Virus record (IMG/VR): IMGVR_UViG_3300042868_000976
Coordinates: 1 to 27,426 of that record
DNA: 27,426 nt
DNA from: a virus
Direction: 5' to 3' (one strand)
In this document: positions 2,695 to 27,420 of the stretch, piece by piece
How the letters are laid out: every line of letters starts with the position of its first letter
Position numbering within the stretch: position 1 is the stretch's first letter
Notes under the pieces: model-generated
What the model was told of the DNA's origin: nothing
The model's input: only the letters and a program-made list of their open reading frames with translations
The model's database searches: none
Translations under genes and position numbers: made by a program

Positions 2695-4214
2695 TCGACT
2701 TCAAGTATAAGCCTGATGGTGAGGTGCTGAAGGACTTCATGAAGGACGACACCTTCTTTCGCGGCATCCGTGGTCCTGTCGGTTCAGGTAAGTCGGTCGG
2801 ATGTTGCGTTGAGGTTTTTCGTCGCGCCTTAATGCAAGAGAAGGGGCCGGATGGTAAGCGCAAGAGCCGTTGGGCTATCATTCGAAACACCAACCCACAG
2901 CTTAGAACGACGACGATCAAGACTTGGCTGGACTGGTTTCCCGAGAATGATTGGGGCAAGTTTACTTGGTCAGTGCCTTACACGCACATGATTAAGAAGG
3001 GTGACTTAGAGCTTGAGGTTATCTTCCTCGCTCTTGATAGACCCGAAGATGTGAAGAAACTTCTGTCGCTGGAACTTACTGGTATCTGGATCAACGAGGC
3101 TAGGGAAATTCCCAAGAGCATCATTGATGCTTGTACCATGCGCGTGGGTCGCTACCCTTCTATGCGCGATGGTGGCCCTAGCTGGACTGGCGTTATCGCA
3201 GATACCAACGCACCGGAAGAAGATCACTGGTGGCCGATCATGTCTGGTGAGGTTCCGATCCCAGACCACATTCCCAAGGAACAGGCAAAGATGCTGGTGA
3301 AGCCAAGCAACTGGCGCTTCTTTACCCAGCCTGCCGGGATGGTTGAGGTCAAGAATGATAGCGGCGACATTGAGAAGTACGAGCCAAACGCAAAGGCTGA
3401 GAACCGCAAGAACATGATGCAGTCGTATTACCCGAACTTGATTCAGGGTAAGACCAAAAGCTGGATCGATGTCTATGTGATGAACCGCCTTGGCACCATT
3501 CAGGATGGAAAGCCAGTGTATCCCATGTTTGCCACAGAGGCTCACGTTGCTCAGGAAGAGATTCCGATTGCGGCGGGCCAGCCTGTCTATGTTGGATTGG
3601 ACTTTGGCCTTACGCCTGCGGCTGCAATTGGCCAGAAGGTCAGAGGTCGGTGGCTGATTCAGTCTGAGATTGTCGCCATTGATATGGGCATCGTCAGGTT
3701 TGCTGAGGTTCTACGCAATGAACTGGCAACTAGATTTGCGGCGGCTGGCGAAACTATCATCTATGGCGATCCGGCTGGTGACTTTAGAGCGCAGACCGAT
3801 GAATCAACGCCGTTCCATATCTTGCGGGGCGCTGGACTGCGGGCCTTTCCTACGCACTCCAACTCGCCTGACCTGCGGATTGAAGCTGTTTCTTCTCAGC
3901 TTACCAAGATGGTCGAGGGCAAGCCCGCGTTTCTCTTGGATCGGCGCTGCACGACAATCATCAAGGGCTTTGAGGGCGGCTATTCCTACAAGCGCATGGA
4001 GGTTTCTGGTGAGCGGTATGCCGACAAGCCAGAGAAGAACATGTTCAGCCACGTCCATGACGCCTTGCAGTATCTTCTTCTCGGCGCTGGCGAGGGACGA
4101 GCCTTGATGAATAGCCAGAAACCAGCGCAGGTTACAGTTGCCAAGCGTGACTTTGACGTGTTTGCGCGGCAAGATAAGCCTAAGCGTAGGCAGGGACTCT
4201 GGGCTAGGATGTAG
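2691..4214 (+). CDS. terL: Terminase large subunit
   Basis: This 507-residue packaging motor has both expected halves. The ATPase domain carries Walker A GPVGSGKS at residues 28-35 and a Walker B-like TGIWINEA with the catalytic glutamate at about 136. The RNase H-like nuclease domain shows its acidic residues in GLDFG (D304), YGDPAG (D360) and HVHDALQY (D457). Length fits podovirus large terminases. ATG 2691 overlaps the upstream stop by 4 nt. In T7 this gene is near the end of the late region; here it precedes the portal, and a terminator (4218-4240) and a new copy of the late motif follow directly. Confidence 0.96.
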   Translation: MIDFKYKPDGEVLKDFMKDDTFFRGIRGPVGSGKSVGCCVEVFRRALMQEKGPDGKRKSRWAIIRNTNPQLRTTTIKTWLDWFPENDWGKFTWSVPYTHMIKKGDLELEVIFLALDRPEDVKKLLSLELTGIWINEAREIPKSIIDACTMRVGRYPSMRDGGPSWTGVIADTNAPEEDHWWPIMSGEVPIPDHIPKEQAKMLVKPSNWRFFTQPAGMVEVKNDSGDIEKYEPNAKAENRKNMMQSYYPNLIQGKTKSWIDVYVMNRLGTIQDGKPVYPMFATEAHVAQEEIPIAAGQPVYVGLDFGLTPAAAIGQKVRGRWLIQSEIVAIDMGIVRFAEVLRNELATRFAAAGETIIYGDPAGDFRAQTDESTPFHILRGAGLRAFPTHSNSPDLRIEAVSSQLTKMVEGKPAFLLDRRCTTIIKGFEGGYSYKRMEVSGERYADKPEKNMFSHVHDALQYLLLGAGEGRALMNSQKPAQVTVAKRDFDVFARQDKPKRRQGLWARM

Positions 4215-7073: not shown

Positions 7074-7575
7074 GCCCTTCCTTGAAGAACGTGGCCTACG
7101 GCTTGTGGCGCTTGAACAGCGCCACATCCTACCTTTCGTAACCAACCTTAGCGCAGAAAACCTAAGAGAGTTTGAGACCCTATATGAGCGGTCGCCACTA
7201 GAATCTCTTGAGGCTATTGTTCATAACCCTCTGGTTTATGCTGTGGAAAAGGATGGGCAACCACTTGCGGTGACTGGCATTGACCCAGATCACGGCTTCA
7301 TGTGGGCAATGTTTAGCAAAGATATGCGGAAACATTGGGTCAGCTTTGCCAGAGCTTCCATTAAACTGATGGCCTTCTACAATCTCCTTCATCTGCGCCT
7401 GACCTGTGATGTCTGGACGGAGAACGAGATGATCCATCAATGGCTAGTTTCTCTTGGCTTTCTGCCGGAACGTGCTATTCAAAGTGCAAATGGACAAGTG
7501 GTCATCCGTTTTGTGCGTTGCAGTCCTGAGCAAAAATCTGTTCAGACTACAACATTACGGCCCGTGCTGCACTGA
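7066..7575 (+). CDS. T7 gp13-like GNAT-fold protein (DUF2833 type)
   Basis: The 169-residue product resembles T7 gp13 / DUF2833, a GNAT-fold virion morphogenesis protein. Compare PLAVTGIDPDHGFMWAMFS at about 66-84 with the PLAIGG...WFVTS stretch of T7 gp13, then a long helix with basic residues, a VWTENEMIHQWLVSLGF segment (compare VWVGNTSHIRFLKTIGA) and a closing strand GQVVIRFV. Acetyl-CoA-binding residues are not clear, so enzymatic activity is doubtful. ATG 7066 overlaps the scaffold stop by 8 nt but has a weak ribosome-binding site; ATG 7045 is in frame with AAGG too close. In T7 gene 13 follows the tail tube genes; here it sits before the capsid gene. Its 3' end contains a copy of the late motif at 7510. 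Confidence 0.75.
   Translation: MAKPFLEERGLRLVALEQRHILPFVTNLSAENLREFETLYERSPLESLEAIVHNPLVYAVEKDGQPLAVTGIDPDHGFMWAMFSKDMRKHWVSFARASIKLMAFYNLLHLRLTCDVWTENEMIHQWLVSLGFLPERAIQSANGQVVIRFVRCSPEQKSVQTTTLRPVLH
7510..7520 (+). promoter_or_regulatory. Putative phage late promoter, copy D
   Basis: TTTGTGCGTTG, identical to the first 11 bases of copies A and C, lies within the end of the gp13-like gene, 143 nt before the capsid ATG. Beyond base 11 it diverges (CAGTCC, resembling copy A with one base removed). Capsid genes in T7-like phages are usually preceded by a strong promoter, which fits. The coding context makes this the least certain copy. Confidence 0.5.
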
Positions 7576-12771: not shown

Positions 12772-15312
12772 ATGGACGAAGCGACTAAAAAACCAAAGCT
12801 CAGCTTTGCCGGGGTTCCATCTGTCAATCTAACCGCAAACCCAGCTAGCCTTGGTGGTTACTTAGCCACCTCTATCAAGGTCGGTCAGGAGAATGCAGTT
12901 AAGGCTGAGCTGTCTCCACCCGAGTCTTTGGCTCGGCTTGAGTTTGTTCAGCAAGAAGCTGTTGCCCGTGGTCTTCTAAAGCACTTTGTTGGCAAACTTG
13001 ATAAAAGCAATCCAGATACCGCTACGATCCTTGAGGGGATCAATGGCGCTATCCGTTCTCAGGACTTGTCTTCTGTTGAAGCATTCTCGCCTGAGCTTGC
13101 CTCTGTACTTTCTATCTACGCCAAGAACCCTAAGGCATTTGGAGACTACAACGACTTCTCCAAGGAGTATTTGCAGGGGCAGATTGCTGTAACCAAGTCG
13201 GTTAGCTCTCTTGCCAAGGCTGAGTCGGATGCGGCTGTCGCTGCTGACATTCGCAAGGCTAATGCCAATACTGCGGACTTTGCCACCAGCGTTTACAACA
13301 CGGCATCGACCATTCAGGCAACTGGAAGCTACGCCCGTGATGTTCGGGCGGCAGTTACCGATCTTCGCAACCAAGCTGTTGCTGAGACAAATGAAGCAGT
13401 AATCACTTCACTCAATGATCGCGCTAAGACTATTGAGACATCCCTTGCTGATGGCCTTGTCTCAACTCTTGTTCGCGGCAAATCGTCAGACGATGTTACC
13501 CGCATCCGTCAAGCTGTGGCTGACAACAACTACGCCAACTTAACCGATGATGAGCGGACAAACTTCTTCATCCTAATGGATGGCATCTCGCCGGATATGC
13601 GGGATCATGTTGACACGGAGCTTGGTGCTTATGCCTCTGGTCCCGCTAAGTTTGCAGAAACTAAACAGCGCGAAGAAGCTGTTGAGTCCGTAAATTCTGT
13701 TAGGTCTGATCTTTTTGCCTTTAGATCGCTTGGGTCTACAGAGCAGATTCAATCTGCCGTAACCGAAGCCGTTTCTGCAATCGAAGGCATTCCCGGCCTG
13801 CCTGATGGCGATGCTAAGAGCGTTAAGGACGAGGCATATATTGAAGCTGCGAACGCAGCTTTGGGCCTTGCAACGAAATCAGCTAGCTCAGCCGAAGAGC
13901 TAACTCAAATGCAGGCGTATGTAACAAACAAAGAGGTTGGCAACCTTTCTCCTGAAGTCTTGAAGAACCTTGATACGTTTGTTCAGCTTGGCGGCTTGGT
14001 TACGGACAATGGCTTTCGGCAATCCGCCTTTAACTACGCAGAACAAATCCGCAACGATCAACTTGATGATGCAAGAAGCGCCCGCGCATTAATGGATGCA
14101 ACTAACAATGTTGCGGCTGGTCGTGGCAATCCAAACACTCAGGAAGGCAGGGCTGCTGCTGACAACTGGACCGTTGGTCTAGTTAATCGTTATCGTTCTG
14201 ATGTTGGTGGTGTCCCGCTTACTGCACCACCTGCTGATCTCTGGAGCAACCCAACCTACATGCAAGACCCTCAATACTCGAAGGTCTTCTCTATGGTTTA
14301 TAAAACTCCCGGCGCAATGCCGAGCGGGCTTTTAAACTCGTTTCAGTCATTGGCTTCTGGTGTCTACAATCCCACGACTATGGCGCATTACAATGCCATG
14401 AAATCGGTATCGACACCGCAAGGATTGATCCCTAATCCGGCGCTTAATGCGCTAGGAGAAGATGAGCGTGGTCGCCTTGAGTTTTACTCTCAGGTTTTGC
14501 AGCTTACGCCCGAGGCAAACATTGCAACCCTGACTGCTGCTGCCAATCAGAATATGTCTAAGGAAGGTTTCTCCAAGACTGTCGGCATGTTCCTTGGGTC
14601 TGGCGAAGAAAAGCCAATCAATGACTGGATGCTTGAGTCTATTACTGACTATCAGTTGCTCAACACTGCCCAACAAGAATCGGTTAAGTCTCTTGTGACT
14701 TACCTTGTAGCGGACACTCTTGCTGGTGGCCCTGCACAACAAACTCCTAAGTCGATTGCTCGTCGCATCAACGAGCAGATGAACTCATGGTTCCCAGATA
14801 GTGAGGGCTATGTCATTGATATGAGCAATGGCCTGCCTTCGTCGCGCACTAAGCTAGCCCTTTCGCAAACCATTCCTAAGTATCAGTCTGAGTTTATTCA
14901 GTATGTTCAGGATGAGGTTTCCAAGACTGCACCAGATGCAATAGCAACCAAGTTTGCAAAGTCTCCTAGCACTGGCTTTTTCGGCGCACTTGAAAGTACC
15001 TCGCAAACTATTGCTTATGGCTATGGCGCTCAGGTCAAACCTTTCATCCAACTTGTTCCACGTGGAACAGATCGTTTTGGTGGGCAGACCTACATGGTAA
15101 CATCCTTCAATCCTGAAAGCGGGATGCGAAATCCAGTGGTTAAGCAAAATGGCGAACCATTGATGGTGTCTACCGCTGAGCCGGGATTTGCGGCAATCAC
15201 CAACAAGATTGCTACAGAGGAACGACTGCTTGCTGAGCGTCAAGAAGCTGCCGCAAGAGAGCTTCTTGATCTAACATCTGGCAGAACGCCAATCACACTT
15301 GGAGGCAACTAA
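12772..15312 (+). CDS. Internal virion protein, gp15-like
   Basis: This 846-residue protein is mostly helical, with many alanine-, serine- and aspartate-rich heptad-like stretches and no signal peptide or membrane segment. Order and size fit T7 gp15, which together with gp14 and gp16 forms the ejection channel across the periplasm. Residues about 640-720 (NDWMLESITDYQLLNTAQQE, later SIARRINEQMNSWFPDSEGY) form a recognisable C-terminal block. No lysozyme or transglycosylase motif is seen. ATG 12772 has AAGGGGA 5 nt upstream, strong enough for independent initiation. It stops just before the gp16-like start, whose Shine-Dalgarno overlaps this gene's end. Confidence 0.82.
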   Translation: MDEATKKPKLSFAGVPSVNLTANPASLGGYLATSIKVGQENAVKAELSPPESLARLEFVQQEAVARGLLKHFVGKLDKSNPDTATILEGINGAIRSQDLSSVEAFSPELASVLSIYAKNPKAFGDYNDFSKEYLQGQIAVTKSVSSLAKAESDAAVAADIRKANANTADFATSVYNTASTIQATGSYARDVRAAVTDLRNQAVAETNEAVITSLNDRAKTIETSLADGLVSTLVRGKSSDDVTRIRQAVADNNYANLTDDERTNFFILMDGISPDMRDHVDTELGAYASGPAKFAETKQREEAVESVNSVRSDLFAFRSLGSTEQIQSAVTEAVSAIEGIPGLPDGDAKSVKDEAYIEAANAALGLATKSASSAEELTQMQAYVTNKEVGNLSPEVLKNLDTFVQLGGLVTDNGFRQSAFNYAEQIRNDQLDDARSARALMDATNNVAAGRGNPNTQEGRAAADNWTVGLVNRYRSDVGGVPLTAPPADLWSNPTYMQDPQYSKVFSMVYKTPGAMPSGLLNSFQSLASGVYNPTTMAHYNAMKSVSTPQGLIPNPALNALGEDERGRLEFYSQVLQLTPEANIATLTAAANQNMSKEGFSKTVGMFLGSGEEKPINDWMLESITDYQLLNTAQQESVKSLVTYLVADTLAGGPAQQTPKSIARRINEQMNSWFPDSEGYVIDMSNGLPSSRTKLALSQTIPKYQSEFIQYVQDEVSKTAPDAIATKFAKSPSTGFFGALESTSQTIAYGYGAQVKPFIQLVPRGTDRFGGQTYMVTSFNPESGMRNPVVKQNGEPLMVSTAEPGFAAITNKIATEERLLAERQEAAARELLDLTSGRTPITLGGN

Positions 15313-26314: not shown

Positions 26315-26510
26315 AAGGATTATCTGATTGCCACCTTGGTTGGCAAGCCTCTGCTCTCTCTTTGATTTTGTTTATGTCCGGCAAATTTTGCCGTGCCATG
26401 TATTCTATTAGCTCAAGTTGTTCTTGAGTAACCCACCATGCAGGCAACTTAACGTAGCCCGCCAACCTCAACGCTATCGCGCCGGGGCTGTTGGACTGGT
26501 CACGGGGCAT
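26307..26510 (-). CDS. Small hypothetical protein, 67 aa
   Basis: ATG 26510 is chosen because it overlaps the preceding gene's stop (26500) and has GAGG about 7 nt upstream; the longer frame from 26594 lies wholly within that gene. The soluble product contains LRLAGYVKLPAWWVTQEQLE and LIEYMARQNLPDINKIKERA, two likely helices, with a WW pair at 25-26. I recall short phage proteins with similar AWWVT(Q/R)EQLELIEYMA stretches but no function. It lies in the leftward operon. Confidence 0.68.
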   Translation of the reverse strand: MPRDQSNSPGAIALRLAGYVKLPAWWVTQEQLELIEYMARQNLPDINKIKERAEACQPRWQSDNPYE

Positions 26511-26745
26511 CGCTTCCCTCAATCTCGGCCAGCGTGGCGCACATGCTGTCATAGGCTTCAACTTGCCGCTGGGTTTCGAGGACGCAGAAAGCATCCAGCA
26601 TAGCGTTAGATTTCTCCACCAAATTCGTCAGCTTGGCTTCCAGTTCTTCGATGCGGTCGGCGGTTTGGCGGCACCAATCGCAAGCCTTGTCTTTGGTCGC
26701 GTGTATTGGATATCCGCAAGCGCCGCAGCAATTCTTATCACTCAT
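26500..26745 (-). CDS. Zinc-ribbon plus coiled-coil protein, 81 aa
   Basis: The N-terminus has two CXXC pairs, CGAC at about 7-10 and CDWC at about 22-25, a probable zinc ribbon, followed by a helix with heptads (TADRIEELEAKLTNLVEKSN) and a helical end. Start ATG 26745 overlaps the upstream TGA (ATGA); TTG 26763 is in frame but less likely. Such small proteins often bind nucleic acid or another protein; nothing more specific is supported. Third gene of the visible leftward operon. Confidence 0.7.
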   Translation of the reverse strand: MSDKNCCGACGYPIHATKDKACDWCRQTADRIEELEAKLTNLVEKSNAMLDAFCVLETQRQVEAYDSMCATLAEIEGSDAP

Positions 26746-26957
26746 TTCCGCCCCCGTTCCCAAGCCGCCCGCGACAGCCGATTAGCCAGCGCGTCCATGT
26801 CCTCGGTGCTGATCTGGCGGTTGGTGATGATGGCCCAGTAAACAAGGTCCATAAACCGCTTGGCTGGTAGAATTTGCGCGGCATTGCTAATGCCCAGTGC
26901 TGCTTCTGATTGGATGTCACGGTGCGGCATGACCTCTTTGCTTCTGCGAAAGAACAT
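26742..26957 (-). CDS. Small helical protein, 71 aa
   Basis: It starts in the stop of the DnaA-like gene (TAATG) after GGGAG, so both are co-translated; ATG 26930 is a possible internal start with AGAGG close by. The sequence (MFFRRSKEVMPHRDIQSEAA, then ALGISNAAQILPAKRFMDLV) is mainly helical and basic near the ends, finishing RLSRAAWERGRK. Not recognised. Close coupling to a DNA-binding protein suggests a role in replication or its control, as inference. Confidence 0.66.
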   Translation of the reverse strand: MFFRRSKEVMPHRDIQSEAALGISNAAQILPAKRFMDLVYWAIITNRQISTEDMDALANRLSRAAWERGRK

Positions 26958-27382
26958 TACTTCTTCTCCCTCTTAGCTCTCTCGACTACGCTATCAATCA
27001 CGTCGATAAGCACTGGATTTTCCCTAAGAATAATCTCTGCTCTGCGAATTGATGATGCCACAGTTGAATGGTCGCGCTTAACAACAGCACCGATCTGTTG
27101 AAGCGACATGCCTAGTCTCTTACGAAACGTGTAGGCCATGATGTGACGGGCGTTAGCTATGGCTGCTGTATTGTTGTAGCCAATGAACTCATCCTTGGTT
27201 ACACCAGCTAACTCAGCAAAGGTCTCAATGATTACGTTCTCGTCGTGATCGTTGCCCTTGCGAATGGTTACAAAGATGCTTGGTTGCTTGTAGGCCAAGC
27301 CTTTTTCCCTGCGGTAATTGGCCTGCTTAGTTTCTTCTGCGCTCTTGGCCAGAAGATGTGCGTACTTTTCTTCGTGTGTCAT
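26957..27382 (-). CDS. Stand-alone DnaA domain IV protein
   Basis: A 141-residue protein whose C-terminal half is the DNA-binding domain of DnaA without the AAA+ ATPase. Residues about 52-115 read ETFAELAGVTKDEFIGYNNT, NARHIMAYTFRKRLG (R79 and H80 at the position of the basic loop), SLQQIGAVV and the signature RDHSTVASSI (103-112), which matches the RDH(T/S)TV contact motif of DnaA. The N-terminal 50 residues are charged and unrelated to DnaA domains I-III as far as I can see. Start ATG 27382 follows GGGAGAG. It may recognise DnaA boxes to start, recruit or block replication. Confidence 0.9.
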   Translation of the reverse strand: MTHEEKYAHLLAKSAEETKQANYRREKGLAYKQPSIFVTIRKGNDHDENVIIETFAELAGVTKDEFIGYNNTAAIANARHIMAYTFRKRLGMSLQQIGAVVKRDHSTVASSIRRAEIILRENPVLIDVIDSVVERAKREKK

Positions 27383-27400: not shown

Positions 27401-27420
27401 GCCGGGGCTTTCACCCCGGC
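27401..27420 (-). terminator. Hairpin upstream of the DnaA-like gene
   Basis: Perfect 7-bp stem GCCGGGG/CCCCGGC with a 6-nt loop. On the minus strand it lies 18 nt before the DnaA-like start, at about the same distance as the hairpin before the 29-436 gene. It may end the gene beyond the window edge or act as a leader/processing hairpin. ACCTTCT follows rather than a T-tract. Confidence 0.5.

Follow-up and report, generated by a model that had tools for sequence, protein, structure and literature searches.

What might a phage do with the DNA-binding end of DnaA when the rest of that protein is missing? The question is raised by one gene at the edge of a 27,426-base virus record (IMGVR_UViG_3300042868_000976; hereafter the window), which is itself a fragment and stops 44 bases upstream of this gene. 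A preliminary description had read the gene as DnaA domain IV without the ATPase, and had suggested that its product could block host initiation at DnaA boxes, mark the phage origin or act as a repressor. We therefore consider in turn what the protein is, which DNA it is likely to read, where its gene is found and which of these roles fits best.

Identity and fold of the 141-aa protein

The open reading frame begins with ATG, lies on the minus strand at positions 26957–27382, exactly where it had been described, and encodes 141 amino acids (aa). A search with the Pfam profile Bac_DnaA_C (PF08299), which the preliminary description had proposed as a check, matched residues 50–114 with 55.9 bits (E = 4.5e-15; Pfam cut-off 31.5 bits). 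This is the sole recognised domain of the protein, within a phage genome, and the RDHSTV signature noted earlier is present at residues 103–108. Solved DnaA DNA-binding domains were also matched by sequence (3pvp, E = 4.3e-6). The AlphaFold2 model has an overall pLDDT of 80.8, with domain IV mostly at 84–96 and lower values at the very end; aligned with VIA-align it gave Z-scores of 13.8 to 3pvp and 13.3 to 1j1v. The top six structure matches are all DnaA (Z 13.8 to 10.2), and the next falls to 6.4. Taken together, Pfam, AlphaFold2 and VIA-align define a helix at residues 3–26, a disordered linker at 30–43 and DnaA domain IV (DnaA-IV) at 48–140. Most changes between relatives of the gene fall at third codon positions, indicative of purifying selection, and since synonymous changes dominate, the ORF encodes a real, selected protein. 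A search for an AAA+ domain (PF00308) was positive in 14 of 14 control genomes but negative for the window and for both sister genomes, G001 and G002; the full AAA+ domain elsewhere that could have overturned the first reading is thus absent from all three. It is near certain that the ORF encodes a DnaA domain IV without the AAA+ motor.

The window protein adds one more member to a known and widely annotated kind of phage protein, the stand-alone DnaA C-terminal domain. Such domains are widespread in phages and are labelled ‘DnaA’ in the records, including those of Cellulophaga, Rhizobium, Sinorhizobium, Synechococcus and Pelagibacter phages. Named members are those of HTVC010P, HTVC203P (gp22), phiLM21 (gp33), RHph_TM3_3_3, Ssp-JY42 and phi46:3, and PHROG 27829, which comprises such proteins, is called ‘DnaA-like replication initiation protein’. 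Chen and co-authors report DnaA in all HTVC010P-related genomes (PMC6811365), and the HTVC010P protein (26998–27531) matches Bac_DnaA_C with 62.7 bits. Predicted viral structures include dozens of stand-alone DnaA C-terminal proteins, many from uncultured Caudovirales; a structure search of BFVD with the 141-aa model gave 22 matches at E ≤ 0.001, mostly named DnaA C-terminal, and a tblastn search with the window protein recovered none of the named phage proteins. These proteins resemble the window protein in being small phage products, often encoded beside replication or recombination genes, but most of them keep the arginine equivalent to R399 of Escherichia coli DnaA, which the window clade lacks, and the window clade has an N-terminal helix of its own. 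Among the papers searched we found annotation-level mentions of DnaA in phages only, and no experimental study of a stand-alone DnaA-IV.

The closest matches in the phage collection were rejected as phage homologues, being bacterial dnaA genes of full length that stand in ‘Bacteriophage sp.’ records without annotation. Five such records (MT835860, MT837552, MT838777, MT839132 and MT837889) are, given their full-length dnaA, probably bacterial contigs. One scan of bacterial and archaeal genomes yielded no relatives of the 141-aa protein, and a plasmid search with it returned one host dnaA.

Compared with bacterial DnaA domain IV (1j1v, 3pvp), the window protein has the same fold at 19–28% identity and shares R407 and RDH(S/T)TV, but it lacks domains I–III and has four DNA-facing positions altered. 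DnaA domain IV is also reused outside DnaA by the TnpA-REP/TIRYT transposases, which carry a C-terminal Bac_DnaA_C-like domain and whose flanking repeats are unlike DnaA boxes (PMC6006769); unlike the window protein, these have a fused Y1 transposase. On the Rickettsia felis plasmid pRF, DnaA-like proteins have been proposed to act in plasmid replication (PMC1800911). These too are encoded on a mobile element but are plasmid genes.

DNA-facing residues and DnaA boxes

DnaA contacts DNA through a basic loop (R399 in E. coli), helix 4 (P423) and helix 5 (432–435 and 438–439) (PMC5043019; PMC7561715). A profile alignment in E. coli numbering places the base-reading part of the window protein at residues 71–108 (27059–27172, minus strand), with N71 equivalent to R399, A73 to R401, R79 to R407 and Q95 to P423. 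The minor-groove arginine R399 is replaced by Asn in all window-clade members shown, and three further DNA-facing positions are changed in the clade (R401 to A, P423 to Q and H439 to S). R407 is retained; helix 5 keeps R432, D433 and H434, with S at 435, T at 436, A at 438 and S at 439. Almost every other DnaA or phage DnaA-IV protein in the comparison, those of L039 and HTVC010P included, has Arg at position 399; the exceptions are Gln in one L046/L047 paralogue, phiLM21 and one bacterial DnaA, and Lys in L034.

Exact TTATNCACA boxes number zero in the three phage genomes, one-mismatch sites occur at chance frequency, and the phage sequences yielded no convincing over-represented or conserved word as a DnaA-IV site. 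Judged by these residues, the recognition helix appears DnaA-like, but a full DnaA box is probably not what it binds best, and the sites that the protein reads are probably those of the phage, not the standard DnaA boxes of the host. Replacement of the minor-groove arginine and of three more DNA-facing positions casts doubt on the binding to host TTATNCACA boxes first envisaged and, together with the zero count of boxes, makes a block of the host origin through standard boxes the weaker reading. Nor can marking of the phage origin, another of the early suggestions, mean classical boxes, since the phage has none.

Operon context and distribution

Because the window is a fragment, the operon upstream of the DnaA-IV gene lies outside it and was read from relatives that are 89–97% identical in the DnaA-IV protein, with the near-complete 34-kb genomes L001 and G002 used as sisters. 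In both, the early genes start with DUF932, HTH genes and a Holliday-junction-resolvase-like protein, followed by the replication initiator Rep (phrog_270, E = 3.5e-40), a 159-aa protein (modelled with low confidence, pLDDT 57), a RecE-like exonuclease (phrog_434, 3.6e-28), a phrog_7838 protein (1.4e-37) and SSB (phrog_18154, 2.4e-6). DnaA-IV comes directly after SSB and closes this replication/recombination operon. Rep is lambda-O-like and carries iterons within its own gene. The remaining recognised genes are mostly for virion, packaging and lysis; the portal shares 64% identity with its counterpart in Pelagibacter phage Hodr, a phage in which no Bac_DnaA_C match was found. None of the large ORFs of G001 and G002 stood out as a phage DNA polymerase or helicase. 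The absence of both is likely rather than proven, because an 846-aa ORF (12772–15312) matched no PHROG. The large terminase gene of G001 is split across both contig ends (L001 start, L011 end) with an apparent overlap, which suggests a near-complete genome with imperfect end overlap.

Downstream of DnaA-IV in the window, the gene for a 71-aa protein (26742–26957, minus strand; no Pfam family above cut-off) overlaps the DnaA-IV stop codon by one base (TAATG), and is itself overlapped by four bases (ATGA) by that for an 81-aa protein with a zinc-ribbon-like start, CxxC-x12-CxxC (26500–26745, minus strand). The overlaps bear out the tight coupling behind the earlier idea that these co-translated proteins are partners of DnaA-IV. 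However, they are not conserved partners, because in L001 two ORFs stand between the zinc-ribbon gene and the 71-aa gene, and L106 and L107, both without DnaA-IV, keep the 71-aa gene. Just upstream of the DnaA-IV gene lies a G+C-rich hairpin, GCCGGGGTGAAAGCCCCGGC (27401–27420, minus strand), and relatives that lack the gene have a similar hairpin at the corresponding position.

Viral contigs were queried with two neighbours of the gene, the exonuclease and the phrog_7838 protein, which gave about 130 loci. A custom profile recovered more stand-alone DnaA-IV proteins after SSB, some only 16–39% identical, and all 19 members of the family alignment matched Bac_DnaA_C, at E-values of up to 1. Among loci with enough sequence, DnaA-IV was found in 19 of 27 with Rep versus none of 58 without it; after clustering by exonuclease similarity, it was present in 8 of 13 Rep clusters versus none of 16 clusters without Rep. 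The link between Rep and DnaA-IV lies largely between clades and is not made of independent cases. The slot after SSB is variable, given that nothing stands between SSB and the 71-aa gene in L107 and an unrelated small ORF does so in L106. With DnaA-IV missing from eight of the 27 Rep loci and the L107 slot empty, the protein is not essential for Rep-type replication. In L040 (5541–6173) and L049 (9107–9745), DnaA-IV is fused to another HTH-like region and extended at the C terminus.

In unrelated phages, the gene follows SSB in C72C1, genes for a DnaB-like helicase and a primosomal protein in phiLM21, and a DUF1376 gene in RHph_TM3_3_3; in HTVC203P and HTVC010P it lies downstream of genes for annealing proteins. 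Stand-alone DnaA-IV genes also occur in a separate viral lineage, represented by L026 (1820–2251) and L028 (878–1309); judged by eye, the genes that come next in L026 are SSB-like and helicase-like.

Candidate sites and function

We tentatively favour the view that the protein binds DNA at altered sites as an accessory to phage replication, and place this ahead of a regulator, a host block and an origin marker. The phage would produce a small early DNA-binding protein, made of DnaA domain IV and the N-terminal helix, whose recognition helix would bind double-stranded phage DNA at sites unlike classical DnaA boxes. Once bound, it may assist phage DNA replication as an accessory factor, with the N-terminal helix perhaps touching a putative partner. 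The lambda-O-like Rep, with palindromic iterons in its own gene, is more likely to be the origin-recognition protein, and host polymerase and helicase would copy the phage genome, since no phage polymerase was recognised. Gene order argues for an accessory role, DnaA-IV being encoded beside replication/recombination genes both in the sisters and in unrelated phages, and the four replaced contact positions and the zero count of boxes argue for altered sites. Against this reading count the failure to find a site word, the occurrence of the iteron and leader motifs also where the protein is missing, its absence from eight of the 27 Rep loci, the empty slot of L107 and the largely between-clade nature of the link with Rep.

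Two sequence elements were considered as its site. Palindromic, origin-like iterons (e.g. GTGCCAATTTGGCAC) lie in the linker of rep at 7402–7508 of L001, and also in L002, L031, L033, L039 and others; they occur twice per gene, 69–87 bases apart, and their sequence varies between relatives. The lambda ori likewise lies inside gene O. Iteron sequence differs among L001, L002 and L004, whereas the DnaA-IV contact residues are identical in all three, which makes Rep the probable reader of the iterons; they were ruled out as the DnaA-IV site.

The second element is the divergent junction of the early and late operons, at which the early operon holding DnaA-IV begins in the sister genomes. In the window it spans 415–704 and contains two inverted copies of one leader (arms 520–538 and 602–620); the same layout is seen in L001 (3376–3677), L002 (about 3025–3334) and L039 (2540–2850). 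The region 521–619 had been put forward as a target of the protein. It corresponds to this inverted pair (520–620), which was ruled out as a specific DnaA-IV site because a leader counterpart is present in L111, a relative without the protein. The leader is about 100 nt long, with the pattern GGATTN..CTTGCGAACTG ... GCGAGG.TGG, and its early copy contains a hairpin whose closing pair is C-G instead of G-C in L039. The paired leader could be a leader-RNA control element; the window gave no Rfam match.

Rather unlikely, in our view, is a role purely in transcription: the protein would belong to a set of interchangeable small DNA-binding regulators, expressed late from the early operon, that act as the switch between early and late genes and take no direct part in replication. 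The variability of the slot after SSB is what such exchange would produce: relatives without DnaA-IV often carry other small proteins there, and among ten slot proteins scanned that of L127 has a clear HTH_3/HTH_19 match, that of L058 just reaches the HTH_23 cut-off and others match HTH families weakly. The joining of DnaA-IV to a second HTH-like stretch in L040 and L049, and the start of early and late operons from one divergent junction with paired leaders, point the same way. However, an operator was not found, the junction leader has its counterpart in a relative without the protein, and DnaA-IV adjoins helicase, primosomal, SSB or annealing genes in several unrelated phages.

We consider it improbable that the protein is a motorless competitor that occupies host DnaA boxes and halts host chromosome replication early in infection. 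The retained RDHSTV recognition helix and R407 and the early operon position speak for this, and the absence of the AAA+ motor is what a competitor would show; against it stand the Asn, Ala, Gln and Ser at positions 399, 401, 423 and 439, the first of these positions being Arg in nearly all compared proteins. Least probable is a marker of the phage origin beside the Rep iterons, like host DnaA at many plasmid origins: DnaA-IV is seen in this phage group only in Rep-bearing loci, and several members have a palindrome, TAGTAATATTACTA, between their iterons, but the palindrome is also present in L106 and L107 without DnaA-IV, no exact copy is listed in L004 or L005, which carry DnaA-IV, and DnaA boxes are absent from the phage genomes.

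If the window clade reads other sites, as the favoured accessory role supposes, calling the protein ‘DnaA’ or a ‘replication initiator’ is misleading. What sets this clade apart is that it has lost the minor-groove arginine and comes with a comparative set in which L001, L002 and L004 combine the same DnaA-IV contacts with different Rep iterons, and L106 and L107 are close relatives without the gene. It is possible, if short of probable, that the box-reading loop has been rebuilt for a phage-specific site, giving a motorless accessory initiator or an early/late switch to phages apparently without a polymerase. Two tandem, different stand-alone DnaA-IV genes are present in one operon in L046 (5715–7074), L047 (8737–10096) and L050 (5903–7262); were the loop rebuilt, these diverged copies would represent separate specificities. 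In L046 and L047, one copy has the R399-type arginine and the other Gln.
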